Assembly (NCBI GenBank): GCA_030840415.1
Contig: JAVEEO010000361.1
Span: forward strand, 1 to 10,516
Direction of reading: 5' to 3'
DNA from: Pseudonocardiales bacterium
Lineage (GTDB): Bacteria; Actinomycetota; Actinomycetes; Mycobacteriales; Jatrophihabitantaceae
DNA length: 10,516 bases
Shown one piece after another: positions 1,605 through 9,856 of this stretch. Position numbers and translations under genes: made by a program. Numbering within the stretch: the stretch's first letter is position 1; every line of letters starts with the position of its first letter. Under the pieces are notes generated by a model that did not search any database, was not told the origin of the DNA, and was given only the letters and a program-made list of their open reading frames with translations.

Positions 1605-1783
1605 TCATGTTCGAAAACGCCAAAACCGTCGTGCGGGGGCGGGTCAGGCCTGCTCCGGACGGCCGACCGGCCGTCCCGCCGATAGTTGACCCTGCGCTAC
1701 CGGGCGACTTCGGACCGTATCGAGCACGGATTCGGGCACTGGAGCGCCTCGACTCACCGCACCAGTGCTGCGAAGCTGGCGAT

Positions 1784-2056
1784 ATGAACAGTTCAGGCTC
1801 GCGCTGGTCGCTGTGGTCGCAGGACAGCCTGCTGTCGATCGGCTCCAAGGGATCGATGCTGTCCATCGGCAGCGTCGGCTCGTTCGCGTCGATCGGCAGC
1901 GTCGGCTCGGCACTGTCGATCTGCTCGGTCGGTTCCTGGCTGTCCGCCGGGTCGGTGGTGTCGTCGCTGTCACGCTGGTCGCTGCTGTCGCACCTGTCCA
2001 GCCGAGGGGTGTTCACCGCACCGCGGCGCCCCGACCGGTCTGGCAGCAGCACCTGA
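1784..2056 (+). CDS. Small Ser-x-x repeat protein (90 aa), function unknown
   Basis: Ser occupies every third residue without a break from Ser3 to Ser72, 24 positions in a row. The intervening pairs are mostly small or hydrophobic (LL, IG, VG, ML, AL) and give a nine-residue super-repeat such as SMLSIGSVG. Trp residues flank the tract (Trp8, Trp11, Trp52, Trp65), and the C-terminal tail is basic and Pro/Ser-rich. There is no signal peptide or obvious membrane helix. The register Ser codons mix TCN and AGY, which cannot interchange by one base change, so selection appears to act on serine itself. ATG at 1784 is chosen because coding-type GC bias begins there; the ribosome site is weak. The same frame is open from 1511, but that part is not coding-like. 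Similar Ser-rich actinobacterial proteins exist in my memory only as hypothetical proteins. A solenoid, self-assembling or surface role is speculation. Confidence 0.65.
   Translation: MNSSGSRWSLWSQDSLLSIGSKGSMLSIGSVGSFASIGSVGSALSICSVGSWLSAGSVVSSLSRWSLLSHLSSRGVFTAPRRPDRSGSST
1790..1999 (+). repeat. Tandem 27-bp (nine-codon) repeats encoding Ser-x-x triplets
   Basis: The tract encodes about eight degenerate nine-residue units. At the DNA level the best-conserved part is the 18-base ATCGGCAGCGTCGGCTCG, present exactly at 1865-1882 and 1892-1909, 27 bases apart. Other units have diverged in nucleotide sequence while keeping the Ser register, which indicates an old expansion under protein-level constraint rather than recent slippage. 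Confidence 0.75.
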
Positions 2057-2096: not shown

Positions 2097-2615
2097 TCAG
2101 CCGAGCCGGCGCTCGGCGACCAGTCGCCACCGGCGGGCATCCGGACCCGCGGTCTGCCACAGCGATATCCGGTCGAAGCGAACGGTCAGCGGCAGCCGCA
2201 GCCCGGCACCGGCGGCCAGCCGGAACTTGTCCGCGACCGGCAACTGGGAGTACTGCAGGCTCAGGTGCGGCTCGAAGACCGGATCGCCGGGCACCTCGAA
2301 CGTCCGTCGAGCGGTCTGGAACACCTGCCGCAGCGCCGGCCCGGGCACCGCGGCCAGGTACAGCGAGCGGTGCCAGGGGTGCTCGCAGCGGGTCTCGCCA
2401 AAGCTAACCCGCACCGGTTCCAGGGACTCGGCGAGCCGGGTCAGGCCGGCCAGCACGTCGTCGTCGGGTTGCCGTCCGAGGTCGGCGAGCACCGTGAGGT
2501 GGGAGACGAAGGCAGCGGTGGCGTGCACGGCGGCCAGCCGCGCGATGAGTGCGTCGAGCCGGTCGGCGGCCGGCGGTTCGGGCTGCAACCACAGTGACAA
2601 CCGGCCGATTTCCAT
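2097..2615 (-). CDS. 2H phosphoesterase (2'-5' RNA ligase/cyclic phosphodiesterase-like)
   Basis: This is a 172-residue protein of the 2H phosphoesterase superfamily. Both catalytic H-x-[ST] motifs are present: HLT at residues 39-41 (FVSHLTVLADL) and HLS at 117-119 (FEPHLSLQYS). They lie about 78 residues apart, as expected for the two-lobed fold. The start of the protein and the second motif resemble the Cpd1-type cyclic phosphodiesterase branch, which opens 2',3'-cyclic or ADP-ribose cyclic phosphates; other members act as 2'-5' RNA ligases or phosphodiesterases. The exact substrate cannot be read from sequence. ATG at 2615 has AGGGAG six bases upstream. The gene converges on the Ser-x-x gene with a 40-base gap and diverges from the efeUOB operon. 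It has no signal peptide and is probably cytoplasmic. Confidence 0.85.
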   Translation of the reverse strand: MEIGRLSLWLQPEPPAADRLDALIARLAAVHATAAFVSHLTVLADLGRQPDDDVLAGLTRLAESLEPVRVSFGETRCEHPWHRSLYLAAVPGPALRQVFQTARRTFEVPGDPVFEPHLSLQYSQLPVADKFRLAAGAGLRLPLTVRFDRISLWQTAGPDARRWRLVAERRLG

Positions 2616-2767: not shown

Positions 2768-2777
2768 CCCCTAGTTG

Positions 2778-2791
2778 TTAGGCCACCCTAA
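2778..2791. promoter_or_regulatory. Second iron-box-like site between promoter and efeU start
   Basis: TTAGGCCACCCTAA matches the right 14 bases of the IdeR consensus at 12 positions (13 of 19 over the full box) and has TTAGG/CCTAA arms. It sits just before the ribosome site of efeU and downstream of the putative -10 box. It could be a second regulator site that blocks elongation or extends the repressor footprint. It is weaker than the upstream box because its left five bases match poorly. Confidence 0.5.
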
Positions 2792-2804
2792 TTCGGGAGG
2801 ATCC

Positions 2805-3656
2805 GTGCTACCCACCTTCGTCGTGATGCTGCGAGAGGGAGTCGAGGCAACGCTGATCGTGGGCATCGTCGCCGCCTTCCTGTCCACCCAGGGGGCGCGG
2901 CGCGCGCTGCGCCAGATGTGGCTGGGCGTCGCAGCCGCGACCGCGCTGTGCCTGGCGGTCGGGGTGACGCTGCACGTGCTGTCCCAAGACCTGCCGCAGC
3001 GCCAGCAGGAGATGCTGGAGACCGTGGTCGGGCTGATCGCGGTGGCCATGGTCACCTACATGGTGGTGTTCATGAAGCGCCACGCCCGCAGCCTGTCCGG
3101 CACGCTGCGCCGTTCCGCCGGATCGGCACTGGCCTCCGGGTCGCAGTGGGCCCTGGTCGCCATGGGTTTCCTCGCGGTACTGCGCGAGGGCTTCGAGTCG
3201 GCGGTGTTCCTGACCGCGCTGCTCAACGCCAGTGAGAACCAGACCGCCGGGTTGACCGGTGCGATCCTCGGGCTGGCGGCGGCCGTCGGAATCGGTTACG
3301 CCATCTATCGCGGCGGCGTGAAGCTCAACCTGTCGAAGTTCTTCGCGGTCACCGGCGCGATGCTGGTGCTGGTGTCGGCGGGCCTGGTGATGACCGCCGC
3401 GCACACCGCCCACGAAGCTGGCTGGCTGCTGTTCGGCCAGGCCCAGGCGCTCGATCTCAGCGCCCTGATCCGGCCCGGCTCGGTACAGGCCTCGCTGTTC
3501 ACCGGGGTCCTGGGCATCCAGCCGCGGCCGGTCGTCATCGAGGTGATCGGCTGGCTGGCGTACCTGGTACCGATGACCTGTTACCTGTTCTGGCCGCGCC
3601 GGCGCACCCCGGCCGCCCAGCCGACGGCCGCGACGTCGCTGCCGGCCAAGGCCTGA
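2805..3656 (+). CDS. efeU: EfeU, iron permease (FTR1 family)
   Basis: This 283-residue polytopic membrane protein is the permease of the EfeUOB elemental iron transporter. It carries both R-E-G-x-E motifs diagnostic of the FTR1/OFeT family: REGVE at residues 10-14 in the first membrane helix and REGFE at 127-131 in the fourth. These glutamates are thought to carry iron through the membrane. About seven hydrophobic segments are visible, and the HEAGW motif near residue 203 is also typical. The GTG at 2805 is chosen because CGGGAGG lies just upstream and the resulting start (VLPTFVVMLREG) matches family N-termini. The frame is open from 2775, but that start would lie inside the second iron-box-like site. 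The gene is first in the operon, 101 bases before efeO, and probably iron-repressed. Length is normal. Confidence 0.93.
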   Translation: MLPTFVVMLREGVEATLIVGIVAAFLSTQGARRALRQMWLGVAAATALCLAVGVTLHVLSQDLPQRQQEMLETVVGLIAVAMVTYMVVFMKRHARSLSGTLRRSAGSALASGSQWALVAMGFLAVLREGFESAVFLTALLNASENQTAGLTGAILGLAAAVGIGYAIYRGGVKLNLSKFFAVTGAMLVLVSAGLVMTAAHTAHEAGWLLFGQAQALDLSALIRPGSVQASLFTGVLGIQPRPVVIEVIGWLAYLVPMTCYLFWPRRRTPAAQPTAATSLPAKA

Positions 3657-3757
3657 TCGGTCCCCCACCCGCCACACCTGTCGTTCCCGCCGGCTCCGAC
3701 CGGTCGATGCGCCGCTGCCGACCGGCGGCGGTGCCGAGCCCGAAAGGCGTTCTTCCG

Positions 3758-4915
3758 ATGCTCCTCGTCCGCGTCGCAGGCCTGGTGGCCGGCTTCCTCA
3801 CCATCGCCCTGGTGGCAACCGGATGCGGGTCCGGCTCGGCCGACGAAGCGTCCGGCTCGGCTGCCGGCGCGACCGCGGTGCGGGTCAGCCTCAGCGATGA
3901 CGGCTGCCGCGCCGACCCCGCCAGCATCGCCGCCGGACCGGCGACCTTCACCATCAAGAACGAGAACGGCTCCAGCGTGTCGGAGGCCGAACTGATGAGC
4001 GGCAGCAGGATCCTGGGCGAGAAGGAAGGGCTGACGCCCGGGCTGTCCGGCTCGTTCTCCCTCGACCTGAAGCCCGGCACTTACCAGTTGTACTGCCCCA
4101 ACGCCAAGACCGAGCGCAGCGACTTCGTGGTGACCGGGACGTCGGCCAGCGCCTCGTCCTCGAGCAGCGCGGCAGCCGCCGTCAACGCCGCGACCGCCGG
4201 CTACTCCGCCTACCTCAAGGACAGGGCGGCGAGCCTGGTCACGCTGACCAGCACCTTCGTGGCCGCGGTCAAGGCGGGTCAGGTGGACCGGGCCAAGGCC
4301 CTGTACGCCCGGGCCCGGGCACCGTACGAGGCGATCGAGCCGGTCGCGGAGTCCTTCGGGGACCTCGACCCGGCGATCGACGCCCGGGAGGGTGACGTAC
4401 CTGCCGCCGAGTGGGGCGGCTACCACCGCATCGAGCGGCAGCTGTGGGTGGCCGGCAACACCGCCGGCATGGCCCCGGTCGCGGACAAGCTGCTTGCCGA
4501 CGTCAGGACGCTGGCGACCCGGATCGCCGGCAGCAGCTTCCAGGCCGCGGACCTGGCCAACGGCGCCACCGAGCTGCTCACCGAGGTCAGCAAGTCCAAG
4601 CTCACCGGCGAGGAGGAGCGCTACTCCGGCACCGACCTCAGCGACATCGCGGCCAACCTGGCCGGTTCGCGGGCCGCCTTCGACCTGCTGGCACCGGCAT
4701 TGGCCGGCAGCTCGTCCGGGATGGGGCTGGTCACCACGATTCGCAGCCGGTTCGCCCGGACGGACGCCCTGATGGCCGAGCACGCCACCGGTGGCGGCAA
4801 CTACCGGCCGTACCGGCAGCTGGAGCCGGCGGCGATCCGCGAGCTGACAGTGGCGGTCGACGCACTGGCCGAGCCGCTGTCGCAACTGGCCGAGCAGGTC
4901 GTCACCATCAAGTAG
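3758..4915 (+). CDS. efeO: EfeO, iron-uptake lipoprotein (cupredoxin plus M75/imelysin domain)
   Basis: This 385-residue secreted protein captures iron for the EfeU permease. Residues 1-23 form a lipoprotein signal peptide ending at Cys23 (LVATGC), followed by a Gly/Ser/Ala linker. A cupredoxin-like domain spans about 40-127, with a Cys in the Y-x-L-Y-C segment. A Ser/Ala-rich linker leads to the helical M75/imelysin domain, about 143-382. That domain contains the metal-binding H-x-x-E motif as His223-Arg-Ile-Glu226 and the conserved YSGTDLSDIAANL segment. The ATG at 3758 gives a clean signal peptide and has AAAGG ten bases upstream; ATG 3707 and GTG 3731 in the same frame lack better ribosome sites. 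The gene lies between efeU and efeB and is surely cotranscribed with them. It has the full two-domain architecture and nothing is missing. Confidence 0.92.
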   Translation: MLLVRVAGLVAGFLTIALVATGCGSGSADEASGSAAGATAVRVSLSDDGCRADPASIAAGPATFTIKNENGSSVSEAELMSGSRILGEKEGLTPGLSGSFSLDLKPGTYQLYCPNAKTERSDFVVTGTSASASSSSSAAAAVNAATAGYSAYLKDRAASLVTLTSTFVAAVKAGQVDRAKALYARARAPYEAIEPVAESFGDLDPAIDAREGDVPAAEWGGYHRIERQLWVAGNTAGMAPVADKLLADVRTLATRIAGSSFQAADLANGATELLTEVSKSKLTGEEERYSGTDLSDIAANLAGSRAAFDLLAPALAGSSSGMGLVTTIRSRFARTDALMAEHATGGGNYRPYRQLEPAAIRELTVAVDALAEPLSQLAEQVVTIK

Positions 4916-4931
4916 CGGAGTCTTGAGGTCG

Positions 4932-6158
4932 ATGTCAGCACATTTCTCGCGACGGGGCTTCCTCGCCGGCGCGCTCGGCAGCGCCGCGGCCGTCGGCGGC
5001 GTCGGCGTACTGGCCGGCTGCGACCCGGCCGGGCCTGCCGCGAGCCGGCCGGCAGTGGTGCCGTTCCGGGGCGCCCACCAGGCCGGCATCGCCACCCCGG
5101 CCCAGGACCGGCTGGCCTTCGCCGCCTTCGACGTCCCCGGCACCAGCCGCACCGAGCTGGTCGACCTGCTCCGGCGCTGGACGCTGGCGGCGGAGCGGAT
5201 GACCCGCGGCGAACCGGTGGGCGCGGTCGACGGCAGTGAGCACTACGTGCCGGCCGACACCGGCGAGGCCACCGGCCTGGCTGCCGCCAACCTGACCCTC
5301 ACGATCGGCTTCGGCCCCGGCCTGTTCGACTCCCGCTTCGGCCTGGCCGGCCGGCGCCCGGCGGCGCTGCGCGAGCTGCCCCGGTTCGCCGGGGACGAGC
5401 TCGATCCCCGGATCAGCGGTGGCGACCTCTGCATCCAGGCCTGCGCCGACGATCCGCAGGTGGCCTTCCACGCTATTCGCAACCTCAACCGGATCGGCTT
5501 CGGGGTGACGGCGATGCGGTGGTTCCAGCTGGGCTTCGGACGGACCTCCTCGACCACCCCGAGCCAGCAGACCCCGCGCAACCTGATGGGCTTCAAGGAC
5601 GGCACCCGCAACGTCAACGGCGAGGTGCCGGCCGACCTGGACGCCCACGTCTGGGTCGGCCCGAATTCCGACCAGGCCTGGCTGACCGGTGGCAGCTACC
5701 TGGTGAGCCGCAAGATCCGGATGGGCATCGAGTCCTGGGACCGGGACCGGATCGGCGACCAGGAAGCTGTGTTCGGCCGCACCAAGGTGGAGGGCGCGCC
5801 GCTGACCGGCCAGCACGAGCGGGACGAGCCGGACCTGGCGGCCAGGGCCGACGGGACACCGGTCATCCCGGCGGATGCCCACATCCGGTTGGCCGCCCCC
5901 GAGTCCAACGGCGGGGTGAAGATCCTGCGTCGCGGCTACTCGTTCACCGACGGGGTGGACCCGGTCACCGGCCAGCTCGACGCGGGGTTGTTCTTCATCT
6001 GCTTCCAGTCCGATCCGGCCACCGGCTTCATCCCGGTGCAGCGCAACCTGGCCACCGATGCACTCAACGAGTACATCAAGCACACCTCGAGTGCGATCTT
6101 CGCCTGCCCGCCCGGCCCGGCGGACGGGCAGTTCTGGGGCCAGCAGCTGTTCAGCTGA
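4932..6158 (+). CDS. efeB: EfeB, Tat-exported DyP-type haem peroxidase
   Basis: This 408-residue dye-decolorising peroxidase is the third component of EfeUOB, proposed to oxidise Fe(II) or act on haem outside the membrane. The N-terminus has a twin-arginine signal (SRRGFLAG, residues 6-13) and a hydrophobic stretch to about residue 29. The DyP hallmark G-x-x-D-G is GFKDG at 220-224, with the catalytic Asp at 223. The proximal haem ligand is most likely His317 (PADAHIRLAAPE) and the distal arginine lies in RRGYSF, residues 333-334. The signal also ends in a good lipobox, VLAGC with Cys30, so the enzyme may be a Tat-dependent lipoprotein tethered to the membrane. The ATG at 4932 lies 16 bases after the efeO stop; a TTG at 4923 is an alternative adding three residues. 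A strong hairpin follows the gene. Confidence 0.93.
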   Translation: MSAHFSRRGFLAGALGSAAAVGGVGVLAGCDPAGPAASRPAVVPFRGAHQAGIATPAQDRLAFAAFDVPGTSRTELVDLLRRWTLAAERMTRGEPVGAVDGSEHYVPADTGEATGLAAANLTLTIGFGPGLFDSRFGLAGRRPAALRELPRFAGDELDPRISGGDLCIQACADDPQVAFHAIRNLNRIGFGVTAMRWFQLGFGRTSSTTPSQQTPRNLMGFKDGTRNVNGEVPADLDAHVWVGPNSDQAWLTGGSYLVSRKIRMGIESWDRDRIGDQEAVFGRTKVEGAPLTGQHERDEPDLAARADGTPVIPADAHIRLAAPESNGGVKILRRGYSFTDGVDPVTGQLDAGLFFICFQSDPATGFIPVQRNLATDALNEYIKHTSSAIFACPPGPADGQFWGQQLFS

Positions 6159-8764: not shown

Positions 8765-9856
8765 GTGATGAGCCAGCGCAGTATCAGGACGCTGGCGTTG
8801 CGAACCGTGTCCCGGGCCTGGAACGACCGGATTCTCGGGCTGTCGGCCGAGGCGGCGTTCTGGCAGTTGCTGTCGCTGCCGTCGCTGTTCCTGGGGCTGC
8901 TGGCGGCCCTGGGCTACTTCTCCGACCTGGCCGGTCCGGGCACCGTCGACCGGGTGCAGCAGAACCTGCTGACCACCTTTTCCCGCGCGTTCAGCCCCGA
9001 GGTGGTCGACCAGTTGATCGCCCCGGTGGTGCAGCAGGTGCTGCGCGAGGGCCGCGCCGACGTCATCTCGGTGGGCTTCCTGCTTGCCCTGTGGGCCGGA
9101 TCCTCGGCGACCGCCACCTTCGTCAACACCATCACGATCGCCTACGGAATGCGTGATCTGCGCGGCGCGGTGCGCAGCAGGCTGCTGGCGCTGGGCATCT
9201 ACCTGGGCTCGATCGTGGTCGGGGTGATCGTGCTGCCGGCCCTGGTGCTGGGCCCGACGGTGCTGCCGAAGCTGTTCCCCGAAGGTGCCCGCCGCACCGC
9301 GGACCGGGTGATCAACGACGCCTACTGGCCGGTGGTCCTGCTGCTGCTGCTGATGGGCCTGACCAGCCTCTACCACCTGTCCCCGCCGCGCCGGCTGCCC
9401 TGGCGGCGCGGGGTACCCGGGGCGCTGCTGGCCATGGTGATCTTCCTGGCCGGGTCGGCCGGCCTGCGGTTCTACATCAACTTCATCATCGACCAGAACC
9501 ACGCCTACGGGACGCTCGCGGCTCCCATCGCCGCCCTGCTGTTCTTCTTCCTGCTTGCCCTGGGAGTGCTGCTGGGCGCCGAGCTCAACGCCGAGATCGA
9601 GCAGCGCTCACCCACCACCACGGTCCGGGTGCGCGGCGCCAGCCGGGGCTGGAAGCCCTACACGCCGAGCTCGGAACTGGGCCTGCCCGGATCGGGTGCG
9701 GCCGATGGTGTCTCTGCCCCCGGCGGTGTTCCGGCCGCCGGCGATATCTCGGCCGGTGCGGGTGCCGCCGGCGGTGTTCCGGCCGCCGGTCCGGCCTCGG
9801 CGGTGCCGTCCGGGCCGGCTCAGGACGAGCCGCCGCCGGAGGGCAGCGACTCGTAG
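8765..9856 (+). CDS. YihY/BrkB (UPF0761) family membrane protein
   Basis: The product has 363 residues and about six membrane segments: roughly 32-52, 100-126, 139-168, 187-203, 217-235 and 248-272. The family signatures are present: the N-terminal AEAAFWQLLSLPSLFLGLLA, YHLSPPRR at 203-210, and GAELNAEIE at 271-279 after the last helix. The family was once mislabelled as ribonuclease BN; its true function is unknown. Residues 281-363 form a Gly/Ala/Pro-rich, presumably disordered tail containing two GGVPAAG copies encoded by palindromic DNA repeats. The GTG at 8765 is immediately followed by an in-frame ATG at 8768, which may be the true start. No clear ribosome site is seen, so leaderless translation is possible. 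The 3' end overlaps the convergent DUF3039 gene by 37 bases. Confidence 0.9.
   Translation: MMSQRSIRTLALRTVSRAWNDRILGLSAEAAFWQLLSLPSLFLGLLAALGYFSDLAGPGTVDRVQQNLLTTFSRAFSPEVVDQLIAPVVQQVLREGRADVISVGFLLALWAGSSATATFVNTITIAYGMRDLRGAVRSRLLALGIYLGSIVVGVIVLPALVLGPTVLPKLFPEGARRTADRVINDAYWPVVLLLLLMGLTSLYHLSPPRRLPWRRGVPGALLAMVIFLAGSAGLRFYINFIIDQNHAYGTLAAPIAALLFFFLLALGVLLGAELNAEIEQRSPTTTVRVRGASRGWKPYTPSSELGLPGSGAADGVSAPGGVPAAGDISAGAGAAGGVPAAGPASAVPSGPAQDEPPPEGSDS
9720..9741. repeat. Palindromic 22-base repeat, copy 1
   Basis: CCGGCGG and CCGCCGG form a perfect 7-bp stem around TGTTCCGG. The full 22 bases are identical to copy 2, whose start is 48 bases further on. This copy lies within the yihY tail and encodes part of a GGVPAAG segment. 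Confidence 0.75.
9768..9789. repeat. Palindromic 22-base repeat, copy 2
   Basis: This unit is identical to the one at 9720-9741, with the same 7-bp stem and 8-base loop. It lies 31 bases beyond the stop codon of the convergent DUF3099/DUF3039 gene, where it could act as that gene's terminator. At the same time it encodes GGVPAAG in yihY. Confidence 0.75.

Follow-up and report, generated by a model that had tools for sequence, protein, structure and literature searches.

A family of small actinobacterial proteins with serine at every third residue and nine-residue modules between tryptophan caps

In a 10,516-nucleotide stretch of actinobacterial DNA (contig JAVEEO010000361.1; the whole stretch that was analyzed is referred to below as the window) we identified the gene for a small protein in which serine recurs at every third residue, and which belongs to a family of conserved proteins built of nine-residue modules between tryptophan-containing caps. 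As far as searched, we rate these serine-triplet proteins as categorically new, both as a family and as a sequence pattern. The family spans the actinobacteria, including many antibiotic producers, and we found neither a Pfam or NCBIfam model for it nor a relative of solved structure. The parts of the window protein and its upstream region are as follows:

1784-2056, plus strand: coding sequence of the serine-triplet repeat protein (90 amino acids, ATG start, TGA stop), with homologs and under purifying selection
1790-1999, plus strand: serine register, residues 3 to 72, with 24 consecutive serines at a spacing of i+3
1802-1828, plus strand: N-terminal cap RWSLWSQDS (residues 7-15), from the alignment and column table
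1829-1963, plus strand: five nine-residue modules of the type xLS-IGS-VGS (residues 16-24, 25-33, 34-42, 43-51 and 52-60)
1970-1990, plus strand: C-terminal cap SRWSLLS (residues 63-69), from the column table
1991-2053, plus strand: basic C-terminal tail HLSSRGVFTAPRRPDRSGSST, without the hydrophobic segment typical of most measured relatives
1772-1777, plus strand: putative -10 hexamer GAAGCT ending at -7, its position conserved in relatives

The serine-triplet protein and its homologs

An earlier note on this DNA had claimed 24 serines at every third residue from residue 3 to residue 72, and translation of the gene confirms this exactly. A chance pattern is ruled out, as 100,000 shufflings of its 90 residues, 30 of them serine, gave no such serine run longer than 11, and the runner-up run of any residue at this spacing in the six frames of the window was 7. 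An Rfam scan of the window at gathering thresholds and a tRNA scan were both empty. The modules of the window protein were delimited by the phase of leucine and glycine relative to the C-terminal cap, by the cap-to-cap lengths in the family and by a comparison of the units at the DNA level. The tryptophan of the C-terminal cap is part of the pattern with which the cores were collected, which by itself makes it fully conserved in them.

A search of 5.8 billion proteins with the window protein as query recovered 285 matches at an E-value of 0.001 or better, which rules out an orphan gene. The 120 of these matches that were listed, from hosts such as Streptomyces, Kitasatospora, Phytohabitans, Virgisporangium and Micromonospora, carry neither a Pfam domain nor a name that indicates function, those that are named being hypothetical or uncharacterized proteins. 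The window protein itself had no match in Pfam at E 0.001, and when 71 members were compared with Pfam at E 0.1 no family matched more than 2 of them. Searches of the open-access PMC literature on the pattern, its peptide words and related concepts showed nothing about this family, and of six terms checked in a paper on knotted solenoids (PMC13123833) none about serine, tripeptides or actinobacteria occurs there. The view of the protein as something undescribed has thus held as far as searched.

The earlier note had also proposed a profile search of actinobacterial genomes, which found homologs across the phylum. A scan of one genome per species yielded at least 544 confirmed stretches, the best 80 of which are actinobacterial by title, Acidimicrobiia included. 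Among 61 genomes (that of the window and 60 relatives) 27 match the family profile at E 0.001, 13 of these at 88 bits or more, and strong matches occur in three of the nine genomes of the window's own genus, some of the remaining six being incomplete. At least 17 genomes, the window's own counted, match at 1e-8 in a phylum-wide sample of 396, a lower bound with 11 candidates scored per genome. A phage or viral origin was rejected: the phage collection held no match to the family and none of 21 pattern matches in viral contigs was confirmed, while three Streptomyces plasmids carry family matches.

Using a more distant member as query we obtained 479 matches, of which 120 were listed, belonging to a second sub-family with the variant GSILSIGSSGSILSIGS. 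Its proteins (loci L123 and L124; proteins P0122-P0239) have modules of the form SGS-ILS-IGS and up to 32 register serines each. A third set, probably a further branch of the same superfamily, is formed by five minus-strand loci with SIASIGSAGS-like repeats (L015-L019, in genomes G030, G034, G046, G056 and G047), most of which share a C-terminal FG-VF--PVA- ending. Weaker matches at L021, L022, L025, L028, L023 and L026 have a low-complexity appearance. At L027 (genome G029) there is a different repeat of Ser, Ala, Val and Ile, SIATAGSALVVGS, followed in one frame by a Cys-rich VACVACVAC stretch, which may be either a real gene or low complexity.

The serine frame is the coding frame

The serine frame is the coding frame and is under purifying selection. 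Two sets of ungapped cores were compared, one of 42 sequences (341 pairs) and one of 34 (519 pairs); pN/pS in the serine frame is 0.37 in the first and 0.14 in the second, while the best antisense frame gives 0.73 and 0.39. Most of the differences fall at third codon positions (8,036 of 14,038 and 13,492 of 18,437, respectively). The plus strand had been proposed as the coding one, and the serine itself as the conserved feature, from the mixture of TCN and AGY codons at the register. Both proposals stand: the mixture extends over 81 loci (1,838 TCN and 146 AGY codons), and serines of both codon families occur in 14 of 45 register columns. In the three antisense frames the run is interrupted by stops in 39, 6 and 13 of the 81 loci, respectively; the zero count of stops in the serine frame is by construction, the stretches having been measured within an open frame, and is not counted as evidence.

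We give almost no credence to the idea that there is no protein gene here in this frame, the pattern being either the by-product of a DNA repeat or the shadow of a real gene on the opposite strand. Antisense frame +1 is nevertheless a true competitor: it is almost free of stops, which occur in 2 of the 42 sequences of one set and in none of the 34 of the other, and its pN/pS values are below 1. In this frame the register codons give, as had been noted, Asp or Glu opposite TCN (which reads backwards as GAN) and Leu opposite AGY. Against it, pN/pS on the sense strand is two to three times lower; the check that the earlier note had asked for, whether relatives conserve the opposite frame instead, thus favors the serine frame. 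Moreover, serine is kept across the TCN/AGY divide in columns where the antisense product would have to jump from Asp/Glu to Leu, an upstream hexamer is fixed relative to the sense ATG, and the repeat units are not homogenized at the DNA level (both described below).

A nine-residue module with a strict serine register

The unit of the family is nine residues long. This unit, mentioned only in passing in the earlier note, emerges as a family-wide rule from both the cap-to-cap lengths and the phase of leucine and glycine. The distance from the N-terminal SLWS-type to the C-terminal SRWS-type motif, which was not measurable in 72 of 202 sequences, is divisible by nine in 117 of 119 unique cores: 45 residues in one core, 54 in 79, 63 in 35 and 72 in two, the exceptions being 48 and 52. 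Leucine precedes the register position in 838 of 1,198 cases at one of the three phases, against 161 of 1,307 and 103 of 1,231 at the others, and glycine shows the reverse distribution, with 60, 869 and 799 occurrences at those same phases. Slippage of a 27-bp DNA unit could yield the same length classes. Third-position identity between adjacent units of one gene is, however, 0.50, hardly more than the 0.47 between units of different genes (326 comparisons), while units of the same index in different genes are more alike, at 0.58. Recent slippage therefore does not explain the module, and the units look old and individually conserved.

Between the tryptophan caps the register is 97.9% serine, with 2,574 of 2,628 cells in 120 unique cores, the remainder comprising 33 Ala, 19 Cys and 2 Gly with no Thr at all. 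The anchor patterns limit what six columns per core can hold; with these set aside, the 1,908 cells that are left are likewise free of Thr, which is present at the +1 position (4.5% and 5.6%). Outside the caps the register is looser: of the 2,076 cells counted over the wider runs, where only S, C, A, G and T were admitted, 53 hold Ala, 15 Gly, 13 Thr and 11 Cys. For the second sub-family the count, run ends included, is 2,628 Ser in 2,799 cells, the rest being 70 Ala, 31 Gly, 25 Cys, 12 Arg, 9 Thr and 24 other residues. Threonine is a common conservative replacement where a hydroxyl group matters and is one base away from serine; its lack in the register between the caps suggests that size, and not chemistry alone, has apparently been selected. 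We infer that the register serine occupies a packed position, a model which predicts that replacement of Ser by Ala would be tolerated and that of Ser by Thr would not.

The other two positions between the caps are typically occupied by Val or Ile (+1) and by Gly or Leu (+2), glycine accounting for about 40% of the latter. Charged residues are rare there, and on our reading of the column table no candidate catalytic set is conserved. The strictness of the rule as a whole, with serine at every third position, only Ala, Cys or Gly in its stead and lengths changing in steps of nine, leads us to expect one particular fold, and a new fold for the family is possible.

C-terminal tails and structure prediction

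By a simple hydropathy measure, 114 of 141 unique C-terminal tails contain a 15-residue stretch with a mean hydropathy of at least 1.6, while 27, the window's among them, are without one. A C-terminal membrane segment is therefore likely in most of the measured relatives. The mean net charge flanking the hydrophobic segment is +2.3 on both sides, and so does not settle its topology. On reading the members by eye no N-terminal signal-like stretch was noticed; with this, and with the hydrophobic C-terminal tail in most measured relatives, the suggestion in the earlier note of a surface protein is so far unsupported.

AlphaFold2 modeled the window protein, with 71 sequences, as a single long helix with a mean pLDDT of 58 and a pTM of 0.23, too weak to speak for any fold. 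In the protein P0050 the repeat part has ten-residue block means of 40 to 56, giving no confident repeat structure, and the tail a confident helix at residues 90-111, with block means of 89 and 94. The window protein had no match among PDB sequences, and the family profile had eight weak matches in the PDB, the two shown being Ser-rich low-complexity stretches.

An upstream hexamer suggests leaderless expression

To judge from the sequence before the start codon, the serine-triplet genes are probably leaderless, and expression as single genes is likewise likely. Of 72 loci, 60 have a hexamer of the form.A..AT that ends exactly at -7 (positions -12 to -7), compared with 2.0% of 800 control starts, and the looser.A...T ends there in 65 of the 72 against 8.9% of controls. 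The 72 are those of 81 loci with a usable ATG at most 25 codons before the run, the nearest such ATG being a guess at the start; the 800 controls are other starts in the same loci, from ORFs delimited by a simple caller with imprecise starts. The full TA...T occurs in 17 of the 72. Shine-Dalgarno-like sequences are equally frequent before family genes (22 of 72) and controls (252 of 800). As 48 of the 72 loci are from Streptomyces, we also counted by genus-level groups, where.A..AT is found in 13 of 19 and.A...T in 16 of 19, or in 18 when a shift of one base is allowed. In a further set, to which the window and some distant members whose starts are uncertain belong, 14 of 25 loci have.A...T.

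The hexamer of the window, GAAGCT, is a weak one, in which the second-position A and the last T are kept without an A at -8; two relatives in the genus have GATGCT and CATGCT at this place. This putative element would set the transcription start at or beside the ATG. In the second sub-family upstream translations such as CENxxM would, by eye, suit the same hexamer position.

According to earlier reports, leaderless genes have a TANNNT about 12 bp before the start (PMC3160421), those of Streptomyces lividans with A at position 2 in 94.5% and T at position 6 in 97.4% (PMC8079986), and leaderless mRNAs of Streptomyces coelicolor prefer AUG, at 76.4% (PMC4895711 being among the sources for Actinobacteria). 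The serine-triplet genes resemble these in having a -10-like hexamer some 12 bp ahead of the start codon, and differ from the actinobacterial TANNNT in that C is the usual first base (43 of 72) and that no -35 element appeared in fixed-position column counts.

Genomic context

Across 80 loci in 23 genus-level groups (assigned from titles), no cluster of neighboring genes within 6 kb recurs in more than four groups, with clusters derived from a simple gene caller and the gene itself and its antisense reading set aside. A function based on an operon was accordingly rejected, and the gene behaves as a free-standing, optional unit. Within the window's genus the order Lon-like protein, serine-triplet gene, 2'-5' RNA ligase-like protein, DUF7455, helicase, BrkB and DUF3039 is common to three genomes (G000, G002 and G003), and the Lon-like proteins of the two relatives are 82% and 77% identical to that of the window. 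The 2'-5' RNA ligase/cyclic phosphodiesterase-like gene (2097-2615, minus strand) is present in the same three of nine genus genomes as the high-scoring serine-triplet gene and in none of the other six; the two may just travel together on one variable patch.

Between this ligase-like gene and DUF7455 the window has EfeU-EfeO-EfeB iron-uptake genes (2775-6158, plus strand), which are missing from that place in two relatives of the genus (L115 and L116), by either insertion or loss. The 3' part of the BrkB-like gene of the window is a 48-bp imperfect tandem repeat (9715-9806). In a single case, on a plasmid of Streptomyces sp. NBC_01558 (L112), the serine-triplet gene has a LanC-family gene about 0.75 kb away, the two being separated by a GNAT gene.

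Possible structure and role

We tentatively interpret the family, with a confidence just short of even, as a real conserved protein of nine-residue serine modules with tryptophan caps that forms a short modular rod at the membrane. The modules would form either a narrow solenoid or three-fold helices gathered in a bundle, in both cases with packed serine positions; leucines may stack with a period of nine, glycines would give room at the other two places, and Val, Ile, Phe and Ala would point outward. Attachment to the membrane would be through the protein's own anchor in most relatives, and in the window protein perhaps through the basic tail and the tryptophan caps. The caps at both ends, together with the membrane tail in most measured relatives, make a structural membrane role the most economical reading, and self-association would be more likely than catalysis. 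All three elements, the rod fold, the packing of serine and the place at the membrane, are drawn from sequence patterns. Counting against the membrane rod are the lack of the hydrophobic segment in the window protein and others (27 of 141 unique tails in all), the AlphaFold2 model of a helix and not a solenoid, and the patchy occurrence of the gene. In a bolder and quite unlikely version the rod would be a triangular solenoid with nine residues per turn and three small serine positions per layer, which would be a new and extremely narrow fold. A rise of 4.8 Angstrom per turn is the textbook spacing of beta-sheets; at about this value per module six modules between the caps would span about 29 Angstrom and seven about 34, near the core of a lipid bilayer, and such a solenoid, its core uncharged and rich in Ser and Gly, might even span the membrane as a rod. 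Should the fold be a nine-residue solenoid or a serine-packed three-fold bundle, it would establish a new class of structure and offer protein design a simple scaffold.

Three other interpretations retain the protein and differ in what it does. One is a self-assembling fiber or aggregate, in which the Ser/Gly/Val/Ile modules would stack between molecules in an amyloid-like or silk-like manner on the cell envelope, with the tail serving only for nucleation. The low charge of the repeat, with its Val/Ile at +1 and Gly/Leu at +2, and the modular variation in length are consistent with this, but the small number of length classes (mostly 54 or 63 residues between caps) and the recurrence of both caps better fit a bounded unit, and no secretion signal was noticed on reading; we consider a fiber unlikely. 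It is distinctly improbable that the product is a membrane-active peptide, either bacteriocin-like or the toxin of a toxin-antitoxin pair, with the Ser-rich segment inserting into the membrane. Such a peptide could well be small, flanked by Trp, weakly hydrophobic in its repeat and patchy in occurrence, as here, yet no partner gene accompanies it in more than 4 of the 23 genus-level groups, and a gene that is under purifying selection and keeps its place in three members of the genus is unlike fast-changing bacteriocins. The remaining interpretation, a precursor of a modified peptide whose serines and occasional cysteines would be dehydrated, cyclized or otherwise altered as in lanthipeptides or His-Xaa-Ser systems, draws on the exchange of Ser and Cys at the register, the plasmid copy near a LanC-family gene, and sub-threshold matches of 60 of 71 members to the HxsA4 profile. 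With no recurring modification enzyme beside the gene, HxsC above its cut-off in none of 61 relatives, and Ala substituting for Ser more often than Cys does (33 against 19), we regard it as highly improbable.

Comparison with known systems

The nearest named profile is that of HxsA4 (NCBIfam NF038313), and the serine-triplet proteins resemble HxsA in having serine at every third residue in tandem tripeptides. The matches of the 60 members are at E 0.1 or better, the best being 9.4e-6, and the window protein reaches 17.4 bits against a cut-off of 55. One of the 61 genomes (G034) exceeds this cut-off, with 55.9 bits from summed matches in one frame at a locus other than that of its family match. 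Unlike HxsA, the family has a nine-residue super-period, and histidine makes up 1.1% of the +1 position in 84 cores of the 54-residue class and falls outside the twelve commonest +1 residues in the 63-residue class. HxsA is paired with the radical-SAM maturases HxsB and HxsC; the HxsC profile (TIGR03977) was above its cut-off in none of the 61 relatives. Membership in HxsA was rejected on the scarcity of histidine in the pattern, the scores below cut-off, the lack of HxsC and the absence of a recurring neighbor.

The glycine-rich polyproline-II helical bundle of antifreeze proteins from Collembola, a fold described as unique to Collembola (PMC10235112), likewise repeats strictly every three residues and has at one position a small residue that allows close packing. 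In that bundle, however, the fixed small residue is glycine, whereas in the present family it is serine, with glycine frequent at +2 only, and the serine-triplet proteins in addition have nine-residue units and tryptophan caps. With beta-solenoids, such as the HET-s prion domain with its triangular core, the serine-triplet proteins share a constant repeat length, hydrophobic stacks and insertions or deletions of whole units (PMC6027354). The restriction of length changes to whole turns, seen in 117 of 119 unique cores, is compatible with a solenoid and no proof of one. A turn of nine residues would, to our knowledge, be shorter than that of any beta-solenoid known.
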